DNA from: Lucinisca nassula
Lineage: Eukaryota; Mollusca; Bivalvia; Lucinida; Lucinidae
DNA length: 64,000 nt
Direction: 5' to 3'
Assembly: GCA_963580285.1 (NCBI GenBank)
Contig: OY757011.1
Location: forward strand, 161,931,908-161,995,907
In this document: piece after piece, positions 5,771-63,965 of the stretch
Layout: each line of letters begins with the position of its first letter
Position numbering within the stretch: position 1 is the stretch's first letter
Program-made: the position numbers and the translations under genes
Notes under the pieces: model-generated
Database searches by the model: none
What the model was told of the DNA's origin: nothing
The model's input: the letters and a program-made list of their open reading frames with translations, nothing else

Positions 5771-6082
5771 GATCGTCCCCGCCCATCGGGCCTTGAAGAA
5801 ATAGATGGGCTGCATGATGCTTCCACGCAGAGCTGAAACCGACCGCACATGAGTAATAGTAAACCGCTTAGAGGATCTAGGCCTGCCCAGGCAAAGCGGT
5901 GCGAGTCGGACCGTCCATGCTTATAAACCCCATTGGTTTCATTGGGCGACAGGGCTTGAGATGTCATTTCATCTCAATGTTGGGTAAAAGTCCTACAAAA
6001 TTGGAAGCAACGTCTCCAAAATGACCTATACAGTGTTGACGGGGACGGTAAACCTCAAATCAAACAAACAAACAAACAAGTT
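5771..6082 (+). mobile_element. R300 retroposon, near complete
   Basis: It starts cgcccatcgggccttgaag, contains ccaattttgtgggac in reverse, and ends ggacggtaaacctcaaatc followed by (CAAA)n. Multiple copies share the same 5' start, so this is probably the full unit. I see no clear pol III boxes. Confidence 0.85.
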
Positions 6083-19606: not shown

Positions 19607-19904
19607 GGCCCCCGCCCATAGGGGCTTGAAGAAATATATGGGCTGCATGATGCTTCCACGCAGAGCTGAATCCGGCCCGCACACTAGTACTGGTAAACCG
19701 CTTAGAGGATCTAAGCCTGTCCAGGAACCGCGGTGCGAGGCGGACCGCCTATGCTAATAAACCCTATGGGTTTCATTGGGCGACAGGGCTTGAGATGTCA
19801 TCTCATCTCAATGTCGGGTAAAAGTCCCACAAAATTGGAAGCAACGTCTCCAAAATGACCTTTAAAGTGCTGACGGGGACGTTAAACCTCAAATCAAACA
19901 AACA
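19604..19904 (+). mobile_element. R300 retroposon, complete, with target duplication
   Basis: The copy starts ggcccccgcccatagggg and ends acgttaaacctcaaatc plus (AAAC)n. The host S3 sequence aactggaggc is duplicated exactly at 19595-19603/4 and 19905-19914. This sets the boundaries of R300 and shows it moves as a unit of about 300 bp. Confidence 0.9.
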
Positions 19905-19950
19905 AACTGGAGGCGCCCTGTTCAGGGAGAGGCATCCCCTATGCAGGCTA
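19905..19950 (+). mobile_element. S3 SINE, continuation
   Basis: ggaggcgccctgttcaggg and catcccctatgcagg match S3 at 23950-23985. The SINE then meets the S2 tail. Confidence 0.75.
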
Positions 19951-32062: not shown

Positions 32063-32185
32063 TCAGGTTGGGTGACGAGATCCAAGCCAGACAGAACATT
32101 CTAGGTCCGTCCTCTGGCGGTTCTAACGTGTACCCACAATTTATGATTTGCAGCGTTAGAAATAGTAAGAATAACGTATATCCCT

Positions 32186-32486
32186 GTTTGTTTTTGTTTG
32201 TTTGAGTTGAGGTTTAACGTCCCCGTCAACACTGTAAATGTCATTTTGGAGACGTTCCTTCCAATTTTGTGGGACTTTTACCCGACGTTGCGATGAAATG
32301 ACATCTCAAACCCTGTCGCCCAATGAAACCAATAGGGGTTATAAGCATGGACGGTCCGACTTGCACCGCTTTGCCCGGGCAAGCTTAAATCCTCTAAGCG
32401 GTTTACCAGTACTAGTGTGTGGGCGGATTTAGCTCTGCGTGGAAGCATCGTGCAGCCCATATATTTCTTCAAGCCCCGATGGGCTT
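32186..32486 (-). mobile_element. R300 retroposon, complete
   Basis: Reverse copy from the (TTTG)n tail and taacgtccccgtcaac to cttcaagccccgatgggc. Confidence 0.9.
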
Positions 32487-47059: not shown

Positions 47060-47550
47060 TTTTGTGATAGTTTTCTTATTTGTACCTCAAACATAGGTTG
47101 TGGGTGCTCGTCAGTAGCCATGAGTACCCACTAATGTGTTTGCTTGTTTTTGTTTGATTTGAGTTTAAAATCCCCGTCAACACTGTATAGGTCATTTTGG
47201 AGACGTTGCTTCCAATTTTGTGGGACCTTTACCCGACATTGAGATGAAATGACATCTCAAGCCATGTCGCCAAATGAAACCAATAGGGTTTATAAGCATG
47301 GACGATCAGACTCACACCGCTTTTCCTGGGCAGGCTTAGATCCTCTAAGTGGTTTACCAGTACTCATGTGTGATTGGTTTCAGCTCTGCGTGGAAACATC
47401 ATGCAGCCCATCTATTTCTTCAAGCCCCGATGGGCAGGGGTCACCAACTAACAGGTACTCACAACCTATGTCTAGAAATAAAAATAAGAAAAATAATGAA
47501 AGTTTTTTCATTGAAAGTGGGCTTTATAGGTGTGTTCATCACAAGGAACC
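47060..47550. mobile_element. M2b-like MITE remnant, interrupted by R300
   Basis: cctcaaacataggttgtggg before the insertion and aggtactcacaacctatg after it read as one core. The right part continues to about 47550. Confidence 0.55.
47136..47440 (-). mobile_element. R300 retroposon
   Basis: Reverse copy from gtttttgtttgatttgagt to caagccccgatgggcag. Nearly complete. Confidence 0.9.
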
Positions 47551-54720: not shown

Positions 54721-55845
54721 TTACCAGGGCAAGTTGTACAACCTGGCTGCATTATTATTGCACTTCCACACTAACTCTGTAACAGTAATGTTCAATGATC
54801 TAGCAGCATCATTTGCTACTTTATGGACAGCCCAGGGGAATTTGCCTAAATATCCAGCGTCCGACTCAAGCAAAATACGCTTCGAGAAATCCTGTGTTCT
54901 CAGAGCAGACATAGTTACCGGGTCATCAACAGTCACAGGGGAAATACTAAAGTAACAGTTGGGTAAAGAAGTATACCACTGAATATACTCCTCCTTCCCA
55001 ACAAAACAATGGCGGTGAATTGGGTGTCGAAGCATGTCCATTTCTGTGAGGATCTTTAGAACCTCCTCAGCAGCTTCACCAGTACCACTATCTCGTATAT
55101 GCAATACCAGTACTTTATTCGTTTCTTTAGCAAGCTGAAAAGCCAGTCGAAGGAATCCACGCTGTCCCTGGACCTTTTGATCATAACAGTATTTCGGGTT
55201 ATGACAGCCATGTCTACACTGTGTGGTCAGGTCCAAGCCAACCTCGCCGACTCCAACGGCCTCTGGATGTGCATCCAACAAACTCTTCAGTCTGCCATAT
55301 AGCTGGTCAACTTGATTATTTGAGATCATGTGTGGGTGGACCCCTAAGGTTATTCTTAACCCCTGGTCATCCCCCACATGATCAGATAGAAGATGCCACT
55401 TTTTAGGGAACACATAGTTTGCCACAGCAAAAGGAATACGTATAGGGAGAGATTCCGAGTACTCCAGGTCTGACAATGAATGGTTTTGACGACCAAAGTA
55501 GCTATCCAGGTGAAAATGGGTATCAATGATGCCCCTCTTTACCACAGGATGCCCTAATTGCGGATCGGAACCATTAGCCAAAGAATACCTGGCGTAATTC
55601 TGAAGCCTAGCCATTGCCTGACAGTTGAGGTGGGAGGTGAGTCGAGACATTGTTTCAGGGTGTATCAGGCAAATGAGTCGTTTAGGGGGAATCACCATGT
55701 ACTCACCAGGTTGAAGTGGCTCCAACCCAGCTCTCTGGTCGTACTCTGAGGAAGAAATATTCTTCCTCCGAGAATTTAACGGTAGAGGGAGCCAGCCCCT
55801 GAATTGCAGCACAGCCCAGCAACTCAATGGGGGACCCCAGGCCAA
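54721..55845 (-). CDS. TatD-family metal-dependent hydrolase (nuclease-like), intact domain
   Basis: TatD proteins are TIM-barrel metal hydrolases, several with DNase activity. Numbered from the open frame start (TTG at 55845; first ATG is residue 50, at 55698): metal-site IIDTHFHLD with His110 and His112, GVHPH at 169-172, GEVGLD with Glu201, LVLHIRDS with His249, IHRHC with His279 and LLESDAGYLG with Asp329. All expected catalytic positions are present. A Cys-rich insert (C210, C214, C220) follows the Glu. The C-terminus NNNAARLYNLPW is family-like. No introns or stops break the domain, unlike every other frame nearby except the gag. It lies antisense to the gypsy element and in the same direction as the LTR at 52586. 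It could be a gene carried by an LTR element, a retrocopy, or the last exon of a host gene. Confidence 0.75.
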   Translation of the reverse strand: MAWGPPLSCWAVLQFRGWLPLPLNSRRKNISSSEYDQRAGLEPLQPGEYMVIPPKRLICLIHPETMSRLTSHLNCQAMARLQNYARYSLANGSDPQLGHPVVKRGIIDTHFHLDSYFGRQNHSLSDLEYSESLPIRIPFAVANYVFPKKWHLLSDHVGDDQGLRITLGVHPHMISNNQVDQLYGRLKSLLDAHPEAVGVGEVGLDLTTQCRHGCHNPKYCYDQKVQGQRGFLRLAFQLAKETNKVLVLHIRDSGTGEAAEEVLKILTEMDMLRHPIHRHCFVGKEEYIQWYTSLPNCYFSISPVTVDDPVTMSALRTQDFSKRILLESDAGYLGKFPWAVHKVANDAARSLNITVTELVWKCNNNAARLYNLPW

Positions 55846-56141
55846 GTTCCCGACTGAGGAACAGAAATAACCCGCTCATCGGCAGAAACCAGGCCTGCGG
55901 CAGATATTCCCCACCGAAAACCTGGTGCCAGCCATGCACCTTCTGGCACTCACTCCCGCTCCCTGTTAACATATGGCAATCTACGCATGAAGTGGGAGAG
56001 TCCAGATACCAAGGTAAATGGCCCTTTTAATAACAAGTGCTTATGAACATAGGGGTAGTATGCCCTGCAGACCTGACAATGGTCATAGAAACAACCTTGT
56101 TCTGTTAGTTTTTGATGGCATCCTGGAACAATATGAATCAC
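55846..56141 (-). pseudogene. N-terminal extension of the TatD ORF in other frames
   Basis: Upstream on the same strand a frame at 56141-55950 has Cys/His pairs (CHQKL, CFYDHCQVC, YVHKHLL), zinc-finger-like. A frame at 55972-55703 reads EYLPQAWFLPMSGLFLFL and overlaps the TatD frame. Together they suggest a longer original protein with two frame changes. This is inference from protein-like composition only. Confidence 0.4.
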
Positions 56142-56789: not shown

Positions 56790-57475
56790 ATGGAACAGCC
56801 CCAGATCAACCACCACATTTACAAAGTGATGACAGAAATATGAAAATTGTGACACGAGGGCAGATGATGCCCACGCAGCTACAAAGCACCATGTGCAACA
56901 TCATAACCAATGTCTCTCAGCAAATATGAGAAAAGATGTCAACAGAAAGGACAACGCCCACACAGGTACAAAACCTATTGCGAAACGTCACTCAAACTGA
57001 TGTCATATAAGGAAACATGAAAATACATGTCACCAGAATAGATGACGCCCACACAGGTACAAAGAACTATTGTGCAACGTCACCAAAACCGGTGCCATGT
57101 AGGAAACATGAAAATGTATGCCACCAAGATGGATGACACCCACACAGACAAAGAACTATCGCGTGATGTCACCCAAAACTGATGTCATGTAGAAAAACAA
57201 AAATGCATGCCACCAGGATGTATGACGCCCACACAGGTACAAAGAACTATTGTTTGACGTCACTCAAACTGATGCAATGTAGAAAAACAAATATATGTCA
57301 CCAGGATGTATGACGCCCACACAGGTACAAAGAACTATTGTGTGACGTCACTCAAACTGATGCAATGTAGAAAAACAAATGTATGTCACCAGGATGTATG
57401 ACGCCCACACAGGTACAAAGAACTATTGTGTGACGTCACTCAAACTGATGCCATGTAGGAAAACACATCACTTTC
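56790..57475 (+). repeat. Tandem repeat, ~88 bp unit, about 8 copies
   Basis: gacgcccacacaggtacaaa recurs. The last units are 88 bp apart. The three right-most clear units each carry TGACGTCA, at 57255, 57343 and 57431. Left units are more diverged. Confidence 0.9.
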
Positions 57476-58037
57476 ACGTCAATGCTCAGGCCACGTAGAG
57501 ACATACGAATAGCTTTTTATGAGTAACAGACTACGATCCAAGATACAAATTTCCTTGACAGAAAAATGCTTCCGAGGCGACAGAATTCCCCAATAATGCA
57601 TCCAGCCACAGCACACAACTTGTCAGTGTTACGGGCCCAAAAAGTGAAGGGATAACATTAAGCATTGCTAGCCAAAGAGATAACATCCAAGAATCACTGC
57701 AGTGTGCATGCTTCACAAACAGAAAGGGCAAGCAAATAGATTCTAGTCTGTAATTTAGATATTATCTTTTTCTAATGCTTGTCTCATATAATAAATATTG
57801 CTGTCAAGTGTGAATGCAGAGCATTTTAATAGTAATTAGCATTCTAAACAGAACAGAATCTACCACAAATAAAAATACAAAAATACATCATAAAGGCAAA
57901 ATCAAATATCACACATGTGCACTTGATGCACAGCATGATAAAATATCACCCTGGCACACTAAATGTACCAGCATGACAATACATTAATACAATCATCACA
58001 CATGTTAACATACATAGAACAAAAGGAAAATTAATTT
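57476..58037. other. Leader or flank upstream of gag; LTR not found
   Basis: AT-rich. It should contain the 5' LTR end and primer site of the plus-strand gypsy element, but I see no convincing pair. tttgtggcagaaacc at 58035 is only a weak primer-site candidate. Confidence 0.4.
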
Positions 58038-59894
58038 GTGGCAGAAACCGTTGAGGTCAAATGCATTTTATTTGGTATGACACCAAATATGGGGTTTATA
58101 CCACAAAAAATATCACATAATACAATGACGTTGCCAACTTATACCTGTCAACACCCAAATGTGGGTCCCTTGACTTCACTACAAACAGTGTCTACACCAT
58201 CTTCAATAGACATTAAACCTAAAACTTCACAACAAATTGTGATTGACAAAATTACAACAGTTATTCCAAAAGCTGCAATATATCCCCCTACAAGTGCAGC
58301 AAATCAATACCAAACTAATCAAATTAAAAATGACACTACTGTTTCGACAGACTCAAATAATGCACAAGTTTTATTTTCGGCGAAAGCGGGTGACAGGGGT
58401 AATACACAAACTGCTAATACAATCAATTTGACTACCATTGCATGTACAAATAGTACACCCACAGCTTATGCATCTCAACTAGATGCAAATATGGAAATAG
58501 TGAATGATCGAGGTCGATCTAGAACAAGAAATCTGTCAACAACTGCTAGTCGGAGTAGAAGTAAATCTCCCGCGCCTCCGAGACTCCAGTTATTTTCTGG
58601 AGATCCCGAAGGCCTATCATGGTCATCTTTTATAATGAAGTTTGACCGTGTGGGAATAAGACGTGGTTGGTCTGAAGACAAAAAATTAAACAGATTATAT
58701 GACTGTTTGACAGACAAGGCTCTTGAATATGCAAGTAAATCCGAGAATAAAGAAAATTTCTCAAAGTTAAAACAAGAATTAGCCTTAAGATTTGATTTCA
58801 AAGAAGAACCTATAGCCGCTAGACAACGTCTTCATCTTGCGAGGCAAAATGAAGATGAAACACTTGAAACTTTCCTCCAGCGCATACTTCAAATTGCGAT
58901 GGATGGATATAAGGATGAAACATCTACTATATGGCAACAATTGGCAACAGACGCATTTTTACGTGGATGCAGACATAAAGATGCAGCCATGATTGTAATG
59001 AATGAAAGCCCAAAATCAGTGCATGAAGCGTGTAAGCGCATCAAAACAATTATTGCTAACAAAAAGGCTATTTCAAGTGGGAAAGTAACTTTCCAAGAAA
59101 AGGCTTTTTCTTTTCAAGAGGAAACGAGGGTTTCTAATATTGAAAAGAAGGTAGATGATTTAGTCCATCTGATAAAGACCACACCCAGTTTTTATAGATC
59201 TCCCTCAAATTCTCCAGCTCGGTACCCATCTGGCTCACAGAACCAAAATTGGCCCAGGCAAAGGTCTCCAGATGTATACCGAGGTGGGTCCCCTCGTGGT
59301 AGACAGTCATATGGTTATAGGAATTCGCCATCAAGACAAGAAATGCCTTATAGAGGCGATAGAACATTCAATTACTCCAATAGAAGTCCTAATAGGGTGA
59401 ACGGTGGAAGCAACTATACTATGGGTGATAGGTATCACCGAGGCTATAGTCCTCCATCAGGTCCTGCATATGCACCCATTCCTTCAAATAGAGTGAACGG
59501 TGGCAGTAACTATACTATGGGTGATAGGTATCACCGAGGTTATAGTCCTCCACCAGGTTCTGCATACACACCTATTTCTCCAAATCAGTATCCTCCGAGA
59601 TACCCATCTCAGCAGTATGTATATGATGGGTATCCATCATCTGATACTGTTGGAAATAGAGACTACAGACGAGATCATTTGTCTCAAGGGTATCAAGAGG
59701 GAAATAAACAGAGCTTTAACATTAAATCACAAAATCGAGATTCGGTTGCGGGAGTCGATAGGTCATATCTATCGAATACGCCTAGAAGCCCCGAGGCTTT
59801 TGTTCGGTCCGTATCCGGTCAAGATTTTGGATCTCAAGATATCCAGGAGGATTTAAACAAGGACGGACTAGGTCCAAGGGCGACGGAAGCCTAG
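58038..59894 (+). CDS. Ty3/gypsy Gag polyprotein
   Basis: 618 codons are open. The first codon of the frame is GTG; ATG codons follow at residues 14 and 18. Residues ~190-340 are a typical retrotransposon Gag core (LQLFSGDPEGLSWSSFIMKF, LYDCLTDKALEYA, ETLETFLQRILQIA), which would assemble the particle. No CCHC zinc knuckle is present. Instead the C-terminal third is Arg/Tyr/Gly/Pro-rich and holds two copies of a 32-residue repeat (NRVNGGSNYTMGDRYHRGYS) from a 96 bp tandem duplication. It ends in TAG at 59892. The -1 frameshift signal at codons 606-607 leads into pol. The frame is intact, so Gag could still be made. Confidence 0.9.
   Translation: MAETVEVKCILFGMTPNMGFIPQKISHNTMTLPTYTCQHPNVGPLTSLQTVSTPSSIDIKPKTSQQIVIDKITTVIPKAAIYPPTSAANQYQTNQIKNDTTVSTDSNNAQVLFSAKAGDRGNTQTANTINLTTIACTNSTPTAYASQLDANMEIVNDRGRSRTRNLSTTASRSRSKSPAPPRLQLFSGDPEGLSWSSFIMKFDRVGIRRGWSEDKKLNRLYDCLTDKALEYASKSENKENFSKLKQELALRFDFKEEPIAARQRLHLARQNEDETLETFLQRILQIAMDGYKDETSTIWQQLATDAFLRGCRHKDAAMIVMNESPKSVHEACKRIKTIIANKKAISSGKVTFQEKAFSFQEETRVSNIEKKVDDLVHLIKTTPSFYRSPSNSPARYPSGSQNQNWPRQRSPDVYRGGSPRGRQSYGYRNSPSRQEMPYRGDRTFNYSNRSPNRVNGGSNYTMGDRYHRGYSPPSGPAYAPIPSNRVNGGSNYTMGDRYHRGYSPPPGSAYTPISPNQYPPRYPSQQYVYDGYPSSDTVGNRDYRRDHLSQGYQEGNKQSFNIKSQNRDSVAGVDRSYLSNTPRSPEAFVRSVSGQDFGSQDIQEDLNKDGLGPRATEA
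59392..59583 (+). repeat. 96 bp tandem duplication inside gag
   Basis: Two in-frame copies (59392-59487, 59488-59583), with gtgaacggtgg and actatactatgggtgatagg in each. The differences are few, so the duplication is fairly young. Confidence 0.85.
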
Positions 59895-59898
59895 TCCG
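59852..59898 (+). promoter_or_regulatory. -1 ribosomal frameshift signal, gag to pol
   Basis: TTTAAAC at 59852-59858 is in the correct gag phase (T TTA AAC, codons 606-607). A 5 nt spacer follows, then a perfect 9 bp stem: CGGACTAGG at 59864-59872 pairs with CCTAGTCCG at 59890-59898, with a 17 nt loop. The gag stop TAG lies in the 3' arm. After slippage the pol frame is open from CAA at 59858 onward with no stop. Confidence 0.85.
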
Positions 59899-62800
59899 AT
59901 CAGAGTCAAGTCGCCATTGTGAGGTCCTTGAGGTATCCCTACCAAGCCAAAGAAATTTAACTGCATCGGTGAAAACTCTTTTAAATGGAAAACCAACTTC
60001 AGCAATCCTAGATACAGCTGCCATGGTGACACTGGTTAGGGATGACTATTTAACCTGTATGAATAATTCTGAGCAGCTGGGTCCTGTTTGTGTTCTGACA
60101 GGGATTGGCGCAGATCCGGTGCAGGGTCGGATTGTGCATAATGTGCCAATCACTGTCGGATCCCAAACTTTCTTGCATACAGTCTGTGCAGCCCCAGTAA
60201 AGGATACTTGTCTGTTAGGTCTTGATTTTTTGATGGCCACTGCCAGTGTCCTTGATCTTGGAAATGAGACATTGACAATTGGGGAGGATGTTATTCCTGT
60301 TAGTGTTACCGTGGCCCCTGACTATCAGATTTCCAAGGTCACTGTCGTGAGACGTACAGTGATCCAGCCCAATTCTGTAGGCTTCATTAAAGCTGAATTA
60401 GATACCCCTATTGAGGGATCCTATATTGTTGAATGTCCTATGCAAAATGCTCTGTCGTCTCGGGTATACGGCAAGGGTAAACATATTACCTTAAAGGTAG
60501 TCAATGATTCAGATACATATATAACATACAAAAAGGGAAAGAAAATAGGGCATGCCGAACCGGCTGTGGAAATTTCACCACATATTGAACAGGCTAAGGT
60601 TTTTCAGTGTAATAATGGGAATAGCGATGAAATGCAGCCACAGGAGCCAATGGCAGATGAGAATATTGACATGCCTTCTCATGTCAAACAAATGTATTTT
60701 GACAATATTTCTGGGTTGTCTGATGAGCAAAAATCTAAATTTAAAAACCTGGTTTCTGATTATGCTGACATTTTTTCAAAAGACGATTTTGATTTAGGTT
60801 GTTTAAATTCTGGAGTGGAACATAAAATCCAAACATTTGATGAAGTCCCTATTAATGAAAAATTTCGGAGAACACCACTTCAGTTTCAAAAACAAGAACA
60901 AGAGTACATTGAAAAACTATTAAAGCAAGGTGTTATAGAACATTCAGTGTCTGAATGGTCGGCAGCCCCCGTTCTGGTCCGAAAGAAAACAGGAGAACTT
61001 AGATATTGTATAGACTATCGTGCCCTCAATGCAAAAACTTATAAGGATAATTACTCTTTACCTTTGATTGAGGATTGTCTTGATTCCTTGTATGGTAAAT
61101 GTGTGTTTTGTGTTCTGGACCTGTCGAGTGGTTACTATCAAATTCGCCTGGAGGGCAGCTCCAAGCACAAAACTTCATTTAGCACACGTTTTGGCAGCTT
61201 TCAATGGTCACGTTTGCCCATGGGGCTCTGCACTGCGCCAGCCACATTTCAGCGGGCCATGCAACTCGTACTCCGGGGCTTGACCTGGCAGGAGGTCATA
61301 GTTTACCTGGATGATGTAATTGTCCTTGGAACAGATTTCAATGACACATTGTTGGCATTAGAAAAGGTTTTCACTCGCTTCCGTGAGCATAACTTGAAAC
61401 TAAAACCCAGGAACAAGTGGAGTTTCTTGGTAAATTGGTTAGTGGAAACGGTGTATCAATATCCCCGGACAAGTTAGATGCTGTGAAAGAATGGCCCATT
61501 CCAACAAATGTAAAAGAACTCCAATCCTTCCTTGGTTTTATGAACTACCATAGGAATCATATTCAGAATTTTGCCCAGGTCTCAGCTGACCTATATACCC
61601 TTATAACGGTAGAATCTTTCATTTGGAATGACAAGCATCAGTCATGTTTTGATAAGCTGAAAGAATTGGCAATATCAGCCCCAATGCTTTCTCATCCGTC
61701 ACCTGACGGATTGTTTGTAATGGATTGTTTGTAATGGATTGTGATGCCAGTGATCGTCAGATCGGCGCAGCTTTATATCAGTTTCAGGAAGGTATCTTAA
61801 AGCCCATCTGCTTTGCCAGTCATGTTCTTTTAAAACAGCATAGAAACTATTGTACCACCCGGAAGGAATTATTGGCTGTAGTAAAGTTCTGCCGTCAGTT
61901 CCGACACTATTTGCTGGGCCGATTCTTCTTAATTCGCTCAGATCATAATTCCCTAGTTTGGCTGACCCGTTTCAAACATTTGGAGGGACAATTAGCACGT
62001 TTTCTCGAGGAACTGTCCCAGTATAACTTCAAACTGATTCATAGAAAAGGGGTAGACCATTTGAACGCCGACGCCCTCAGTCGCATTAGTGATCCTTTAG
62101 AGGAATGTGACTGTTACAGGGCTGGACAGAATCTGTGTGATCTCCCCTGTGGAGGTTGCCATTATTGTACGCGGGCACATAATCAGTGGTCTCGTTTTAA
62201 TGAGGACGTTGATGATGTTGTCCCTTTGGCAGTGCGTAGTGTGGACGCCGTGGGGGTTGACCATACGCCAATTATGTCTTGTACACACTCAAACTGGGTA
62301 GATAGCCTTTCTTCCTTCGAGCTAAGAAGGGCTCAGATTGATGATCCGAACATAGGCATTGTCATGAATTGGTTAGAACACTCTTACGAGCCTACCACTC
62401 GTGAACTTCAGCTCACTGATCCCGAAACCAGAGCCCTTTGGCTATCTAGGGATTATTTGAAACTACGGGATGGAGTTTTGTACTATTCCTGGGCAAACCT
62501 TGAAGGCCGCTCTGATTGCTTTGTCGTTCCTACGGAACTCCGGCCTAGAGTCTTATATCATTCTCATGACTCAAAAGGTTCGGGTGGACATCTTGGCCAA
62601 AAGAAAACTTTAGATAAGTTGAAACAGAGATTTTATTGGTATGGTATGTCCAGGGATAGTGACCTATATATCAAACAGTGTTCGACCTGTAATAAGAACA
62701 AAAAGGGGAATCGGACACCCAGGAGTGCTCTTGAGAGCTTTCATGCTGGATATCCCATGGAACGTGTCCATTTGGATATCCTTGGTCCTATAAATCCAAG

Positions 62801-63965
62801 GAGTAAATCAGGCTCTGCTTATGTTCTGGTCATGGTGGACCAATTCACAAAATGGGTTGAACTTGCACCTTTACCAGCCCAAAATGCAGAATTGACAGCA
62901 ATGGCATTTTTGAAACATTTTATTGTTACTTTTGGTTGTCCATTAGAAGTACATACAGATCAAGGTAGAAACTTCGAAAGTGATCTGTTCCTTGCTTTTT
63001 GTAAGGTACTAGAAATTACAAAAACCAGGACTACCCCATATCATCCCTCTGGGAACGGCCAGGTAGAGGTTTTTAACCGTGTCATTCTGCAAATGATTCG
63101 ATCATACGTCTCCCGGGGTGTAAAGGACTGGGATGAGCACCTTCCCCTTATTGCTATGACCCTACATTCTATGAAAAACAGGTCAACAGGTTTTTCTGCC
63201 AATATGCTTATGTTGGGGAGAGAAGTTCTGCAACCAATAGATCTGATTTTGGGTATTATAAAACCCACTCCCCAGGACCCTCCAACTTGGGTCCACAATC
63301 TGACCCGTAATCTCTCAAACGTTCACCAATTGGCCAGGGAGAAGATTGGTAATACTCAGCTGCGCCAGAAGAGGGATTACGATTTAAGGGTATTTGAAAG
63401 GTCCTATAAGGAAGGAGATGTGGTCTATTTACGAGACTCATCAACCCAAATAGGGATAAGTTCAAAGATGAGACCACCTTGGATTGGTCCATATTTAATT
63501 ATAAGGGCTCAGCCTCCGGTCTATACTCTCCAGGGAAAACGTCGTGTGCAAATTGTTCACCATGACCGGATAAAACCTTGTAACGACTCCTCTTATCCTT
63601 TATGGTTGCAGAGAAAGAGACATGTCTTACTTAATATAGCACCTTTGGGTGATGAGGAGGATCAGGACATGGAGTCTGAGGAACCAATTCAGGATGACTC
63701 CCCTAGTATTGGTTTGTTTGATCCAGATCAAACACTCCCATATATGTTGGGAAGTGGTTCAGATATGACGTTGCCTTATATGTTTGGTGAACCATATTTA
63801 GCCCCAAATTCTGAAGATACTGATGTCAGCGATACTGACAGCCCCACAGATGTAACACTTGGCGACTCTGACTCTGATTCTGGCGGGGTTTTAGTCACAC
63901 CGTCAGGACCACAGACTACTAGAACAGGTAGGAAAATAAAATTGCCTGCCAGATACAGGGATTAG
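59858..63965 (+). pseudogene. Ty3/gypsy Pol polyprotein, two lesions
   Basis: Pol is reached by -1 frameshifting; no ATG lies near its start. In order: aspartic protease with AILDTAAMVTLV at about 60005-60040 (DTAA where DTGA is commoner); reverse transcriptase from about 60890, with ELRYCIDYRALN, LPMGLCTAPATFQ and VYLDDVIVLG near 61300; RNase H with FVMDCDASDRQIGAALY near 61735 and IRSDHNSLVWL; integrase with an HHCC head (CSTCNKN) and core residues in VHLDILGPI, VHTDQGRNFES and NGQVEVFNR; and a GPY-type C-terminal module (PPWIGPYLI). A short deletion near 61408 and a 14 bp duplication at 61709-61736 each shift the frame, so a full Pol cannot be made. The stop is at 63963. The 3' LTR must lie beyond the window. 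Confidence 0.9.
61709..61736 (+). repeat. 14 bp tandem duplication disabling pol
   Basis: gattgtttgtaatg occurs twice in a row (61709-61722, 61723-61736). It shifts the frame at the start of RNase H and makes a stop. Confidence 0.9.

Follow-up and report, generated by a model that had tools for sequence, protein, structure and literature searches.

A very probable programmed −1 frameshift signal at the gag/pol junction of a Ty3/gypsy-like retrotransposon clade in the bivalve Lucinisca nassula

Programmed −1 ribosomal frameshifting is a well-known kind of mechanism, and a stop codon placed inside the stimulatory stem is likewise known from SARS-CoV-2. The slip site of the SARS-CoV-2 ORF1a/1b junction is U_UUA_AAC, and the authors propose that termination lets the downstream structure refold (cited passages of PMC8168617). 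Among 51 animal long terminal repeat (LTR) elements surveyed in 2003, 28 have pol in the −1 frame, many of them with classical heptamers (cited passages of the review PMC5009743), and MolGy1 and MolGy2 are abundant mollusc Gypsy clades, according to the cited part of PMC6238403. Here we analyse the gag/pol junction of a Ty3/gypsy-like element that occupies the last 6 kb of a 64,000-nucleotide (nt) stretch from Lucinisca nassula (assembly GCA_963580285.1, contig OY757011.1, forward-strand positions 161,931,908 to 161,995,907; hereafter the window, numbered from its first letter).

Judging from its sequence, we interpret this junction with high confidence as a canonical programmed −1 ribosomal frameshift signal of a Ty3/gypsy-like retrotransposon clade, and the signal is very probably functional. 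The heptamer has the form X XXY YYZ in the 0 frame and lies inside the gag/pol overlap (109 nt; gag codons start at multiples of 3), a spacer and then a conserved structure follow it, and the −1 open reading frame (ORF) has no start codon nearby. The spacer of canonical −1 signals is about 5–9 nt. The exact coordinates bear out an earlier reading of the window, made from its letters alone (the sequence-only reading), which had placed the heptamer in gag phase, with a 5-nt spacer and the gag stop in the 3′ arm of the stem. That reading had also described an open pol frame without a nearby start codon, and the −1 ORF indeed runs from 59786, with its first pol-frame ATG at 60023, 171 nt past the first base of the slip site and just 3′ of the D-T-A motif of the protease. 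The parts of the signal are as follows:

59852–59858, plus strand: slippery heptamer TTTAAAC, read T TTA AAC in gag phase (from the sequence and the ORF phase)
59859–59863, plus strand: spacer AAGGA, 5 nt, fixed in length and variable in sequence among relatives (from the sequence and the alignment)
59864–59872, plus strand: stem 1, 5′ arm CGGACTAGG, the pairing of its outer base 59864 not conserved
59873–59878, plus strand: loop 1, 6 nt, variable
59879–59884, plus strand: putative stem 2 (pseudoknot), 5′ arm GGCGAC, within the hairpin loop
59890–59898, plus strand: stem 1, 3′ arm CCTAGTCCG, in perfect 9-bp pairing with 59864–59872
59892–59894, plus strand: gag stop UAG, inside the 3′ arm of stem 1
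59910–59915, plus strand: putative stem 2, 3′ arm GUCGCC, coding in the pol frame only
59911–59922, plus strand: alternative local hairpin, 59911–59914 with 59919–59922, which would compete with stem 2

The real evidence for this interpretation is conservation among relatives, not folding energy, and conservation of the signal elements indicates selection. We searched the same genome (2.93 Gb in 696 contigs) with the junction DNA and with the protease. The DNA search found 19 places, the window's own included, and 16 of them, again counting the window, keep TTTAAAC; the remaining matches are L017, in which the slip site is mutated, L018, which ends before the slip site, and L019, which belongs to another subfamily. 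The protease search gave at least 134 matches (150 of 704 candidates scored), and the junction was extracted for 90 of these; of the 60 added to the first 30, nearly all are clade loci with a match from the first protease residue. Protease identity to the window is about 74, 72, 65, 64 and 54% by subfamily, about 41–53% in decayed pieces and at most 35% in the next families. The clade comprises 71 loci (L020–L089 and L108), including the window copy.

The sequence-only reading had named relatives that lack the heptamer or the stem, or that use a different frame relation, as the observation that would tell against the signal. On this check 65 of the 71 clade loci hold up: in them TTTAAA[C/T] is followed by an in-phase TAG that lies exactly 40 nt past the first base of the heptamer. 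UAG occurs in all 65 retained loci, with UUUAAAC in 42 and UUUAAAU in 23. The six clade loci without the signal are L026 and L078 (5′ part replaced in both), L085, L087, L088 and L108, among which L085 and L087 are not alignable at the junction, have a protease identity of 41% and are of uncertain clade membership, while L088 and L108 have a mutated slip site. None of 19 far loci (L090–L107 and L109; protease identity at most 35%) has a TTTAAA heptamer with a stop at +40 within 541 nt, and two of them hold a TTTAAA heptamer elsewhere. In L113–L115, which have gag and no protease match, the heptamer was not found in the next 1 kb; we read these loci as probable deletion derivatives, not counter-examples, because each of them matches clade copies as far as a break.

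The 65 loci reduce to 38 distinct fixed-length sequences, and eight representatives stand for seven groups. Over the 38 sequences, 91.2% of stem-1 cells are paired, against at most 44.7% in slid controls, and 58 of the 65 loci keep all eight core pairs; broken stem pairs occur in single copies (L011, L015, L036 and others). Specifically, pair 59871:59891 is GC in 32 sequences, AU in 5 and unpaired in 1, and pair 59872:59890 is GC in 17, GU in 15 and CG in 6, each with a double-sided change, while pair 59870:59892 is AU in 24, GU in 13 and unpaired in 1. The A-U change is confined to subfamily B and the C-G change to subfamily E; since each double-sided change sits in one subfamily, the compensatory changes probably represent two events. 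Mean identity among the eight representatives is 0.92 in the slip site, 0.88 in the stem-1 core and 0.92 in stem 2; it is 0.42 in the spacer, 0.36–0.63 in the loops, 0.41 upstream and 0.62 downstream. For the window itself, 5 of 2000 dinucleotide shuffles yield a Watson-Crick stem of at least 9 bp at a suitable start; allowing G-U pairs lengthens the stem to 10 bp, which 12 of 2000 reach. The heptamer alone is unremarkable, occurring 21 times on both strands of the window, with 20.6 expected.

Several observations weigh against the frameshift interpretation. The 65 loci were picked for slip site and stop, so conservation there is by construction, and the copies are related, so pair counts overstate independence. 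Among the eight representatives, 24 of 24 inner cells pair, compared with 21.4 expected after shuffling, a result of limited strength (p 0.016). In addition, both stems have 5′ arms that code in two frames. The folding energy of the hairpin is ordinary (z −1.19; 22 of 200 shuffles fold as well), and it was left out as evidence because it does not separate the hairpin from the shuffles. Furthermore, the outermost pair, 59864:59898, is kept in 16 of the 38 distinct sequences; the perfect 9-bp stem of the sequence-only reading thus holds in the window but not in the relatives, in which the conserved stem is 8 bp.

The end of the Gag protein can reveal the RNA stem through residue coupling. We gathered 34 Gag relatives from the protein database, as protein sequences, from which we infer the signal at the RNA level. 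In the window frame, the GLG codons form the 5′ arm of stem 1, and the last codon together with UAG forms the 3′ arm. LN stands exactly at −13 from the end in 15 of the 34 relatives; eight of these 15 tails fit LNx[DSEN]GL[GSV]xPATNx exactly, and the others differ slightly. All 15 tails allow both inner stem pairs (GLG with T, P, A or S; GLV with H; GLS with A), and the three GLV...H tails imply a U-A pair. When the last residues were shuffled over 13 distinct tails, such a fit was obtained in 0.47% of cases (p 0.005), a value tempered by the relatedness of the tails. Tail P0132 (GPG, last residue A) speaks on the other side, since its residues leave no place for the stem's Leu codon. The remaining 19 relatives end differently: a number of them appear truncated or out of frame, and in some LN stands at −2, −8, −10 or −15. 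As a separate observation, the N-termini of P0121, P0123 and other Gag relatives resemble, by eye, what we take to be a helix-hairpin-helix domain, and relative P0153 is labelled PF12836; the window copy is without this part.

In the proposed mechanism, ribosomes translating gag would pause at the downstream RNA structure, and at U UUA AAC two tRNAs would re-pair one base back on UUU AAA. A fraction of the ribosomes would continue into protease, reverse transcriptase (RT) and integrase, making a Gag-Pol fusion, and the others would read 11 more codons and stop at the UAG inside the same stem, where terminating ribosomes may let the structure refold, as proposed for SARS-CoV-2. The sequence-only reading had singled out this stop inside the stem as notable; the design is already known from SARS-CoV-2 (cited passages of PMC8168617). 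We put forward only tentatively, as a possibility open to considerable doubt, that selection acts on the UAG as part of the stimulator: the fixed UAG at +40 ends gag and pairs with CUA/CUG, and termination would be coupled to refolding for the next ribosome. If this is true, a retrotransposon lineage would have independently reached the stop-in-stem design of SARS-CoV-2, and the clade would offer an independent test of whether a nearby stop raises frameshifting through refolding.

The design of heptamer, spacer and structure named by the sequence-only reading is upheld by the relatives, although the structure may be a pseudoknot and not a simple hairpin. Pairing patterns among the copies make an H-type pseudoknot a rather likely form of the stimulator. 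Its layout would consist of a stem 1 of 8–9 bp, a loop 1 of 6 nt, a stem 2 of 6 bp, 5 nt between the 5′ arm of stem 2 and the 3′ arm of stem 1, and a last loop of 11 nt. Over the 38 sequences, 97.8% of stem-2 cells are paired, against at most 55.7% in slid controls; all six pairs are present in 60 of the 65 loci and five pairs in the other five. Third positions in the 3′ arm of stem 2, which is coded in pol only, stay pairable (59911 is T in 38 of 38; 59914 is C in 34 and T in 4).

Somewhat unlikely, in our estimate, is that stem 1 acts alone, at most with the small local hairpin at 59911–59922 and with no pseudoknot, GUCGCC being kept for coding of the protease N-terminal linker or for that hairpin. 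The 4-bp local hairpin is fully paired in 37 of the 38 sequences and stem 2 in 33, and six of seven subfamily representatives have the hairpin in their minimum-energy fold. The hairpin is also kept in a single subfamily-F sequence in which one stem-2 pair is broken, and stem 2 is without any double-sided change. The pseudoknot is further weakened by the window taken alone, where a loop complementarity of 6 bp lacks significance (147 of 2000 shuffles attain it; 3.2% if weighted by hydrogen bonds), and where another loop pairing, of 7 bp, is longer once G-U pairs are allowed. The local hairpin, however, makes no use of the loop arm GGCGAC, whose conservation equals that of the slip site (0.98, versus 0.65 and 0.57 in the adjoining loop). 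Moreover, 59910–59915 is the only downstream stretch (within 59899–59939) that pairs fully with GGCGAC in any sequence (33 of 38), and changes in the 3′ arm are mostly C to U, with G-U pairs retained.

We consider it very unlikely that pol is reached by internal initiation, by reinitiation after gag or from a spliced pol RNA, with the heptamer incidental. Some database relatives do start with Met near the protease start (P0001, P0002), but these look like gene-caller starts. The window has no pol-frame AUG from the slip site to the protease active site, and none follows the slip site in 64 of the 65 loci over the short stretch examined (about 37 codons); such routes also give no reason why slip site, stem and stop keep a fixed phase and spacing. 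In two subfamilies a pol-frame stop lies just 5′ of the slip site: it begins 3 nt ahead of the heptamer in subfamily B (7 of 8 loci) and 6 nt ahead in subfamily D (13 of 13 loci), so in those elements the frame change would have to fall between this stop and the gag stop, some 40 nt further on. All 8 subfamily-B loci carry a second in-phase TTTAAA heptamer, 21 nt upstream of the main one, at which a shift would be blocked by the pol-frame stop in 7 of 8. L049 has a pol-frame stop shortly past the slip site. Separately, the stretch examined 5′ of the slip site is free of pol-frame stops in L072 (G000 C1, about 57.379 Mb), and the long gag and pol frames of this copy are nearly equal (1459 and 1456 amino acids), as if an upstream change had merged both into one frame.

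It is highly improbable that the arrangement arose by chance in a decayed element: the window copy looks 5′-truncated and its pol is broken twice, but the signal is kept across subfamilies with proteases about 54–74% identical to the window's, and can be inferred from Gag proteins in the database. Readthrough of the gag UAG, known in Moloney murine leukemia virus where a pseudoknot follows the codon (cited part of PMC3835772), has a negligible probability and is ruled out by the frame relation, since pol is in −1 here and at related loci (L029 has a 2-nt deletion further on) and readthrough would not enter pol.

The element that carries the signal comprises gag, then protease and RT, then the remaining pol:

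58035–59894, plus strand: gag open frame, 619 amino acids stop to stop (from the ORF list)
59786–61477, plus strand: pol open frame, −1 to gag, with aspartic protease (D-T-A at 60011–60019) and RT (from ORFs and domain matches)
61393–63965, plus strand: remaining pol (RNase H, integrase), spread over two further frames (from ORFs and domain matches)

The pol order is protease, RT, RNase H, integrase, as in Ty3/gypsy. RT, RNase H, integrase zinc-binding and integrase core domains score above threshold in Pfam, two Pfam protease models score slightly under their cut-offs, and the gag of the window copy matched no Pfam family. Among solved structures, Ty3 Gag-Pol (7q5b) is the second best match to the RT. 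The window copy is broken, with changes of the pol frame near 61411 and near 61725. It also looks 5′-truncated, with an N-terminally truncated gag, because the match of copies L015 and L016 to the window ends at 58075 and its gag has 619 amino acids versus 933–950 in five same-subfamily copies (the frame is shorter in others). No flanking LTRs were recognised among the matches listed in a self comparison of the window or in 1.5 kb beyond it. Close relatives of the window pol carry names of bins of Candidatus Thiodiazotropha, a clam symbiont, from which we deduce a mollusc host; no relatives were found in viral and bacterial genome collections, which may omit records close to the window's genome.

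Several further repeats and frames were seen in the window. The gag tail contains a direct duplication (59391–59489 and 59487–59585, 89% identical) that is present in other copies too. A tandem array of about 88-bp units lies 5′ of gag at 56869–57465, and an inverted-orientation copy of it lies beyond the window end (L111); because the array is also found after the pol 3′ end in L012 and L018, it appears to belong to the 3′ end of the element, and the window may hold two facing arrays. On the minus strand, a 384-amino-acid open frame at 54721–55875 contains a TatD-family DNase domain (PF01026) and may be a host gene or a retrocopy. Four copies of a dispersed repeat, each about 300 bp long, lie at 5777–6078, 19610–19907, 32185–32484 and 47137–47440, with 88–91% identity among them and in both orientations.

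Taken as a whole, the clade provides a natural series for a retrotransposon frameshift signal, with several subfamilies in a single genome, in which the positions of slip site, spacer and stop are fixed and the stem changes are compensatory. We found no published description of this clade's signal among the listings returned by searches of an open-licence library, which is no proof of absence. PEG10 and PNMA, among Ty3/gypsy-derived genes, use other heptamers. They have a frameshift site with a pseudoknot stimulator, and differ from this element in being domesticated host genes (cited passages of PMC5009743). Membership in the coronavirus frameshift element was rejected, as retrotransposon pol lies downstream and Rfam gave no matches for 59700–60100 at E up to 1. 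The SARS-CoV-2 ORF1a/1b element and the junction described here have in common U_UUA_AAC, a 9-bp stem 1 and a pseudoknot stimulator, the last putative here; SARS-CoV-2 has a third stem and a stop five codons downstream, whereas here the stop comes after 11 codons, in the 3′ arm, with no third stem shown (comparison with the cited passages of PMC8168617). As the retrotransposon is unrelated to SARS-CoV-2, the likeness between the two would represent convergence.
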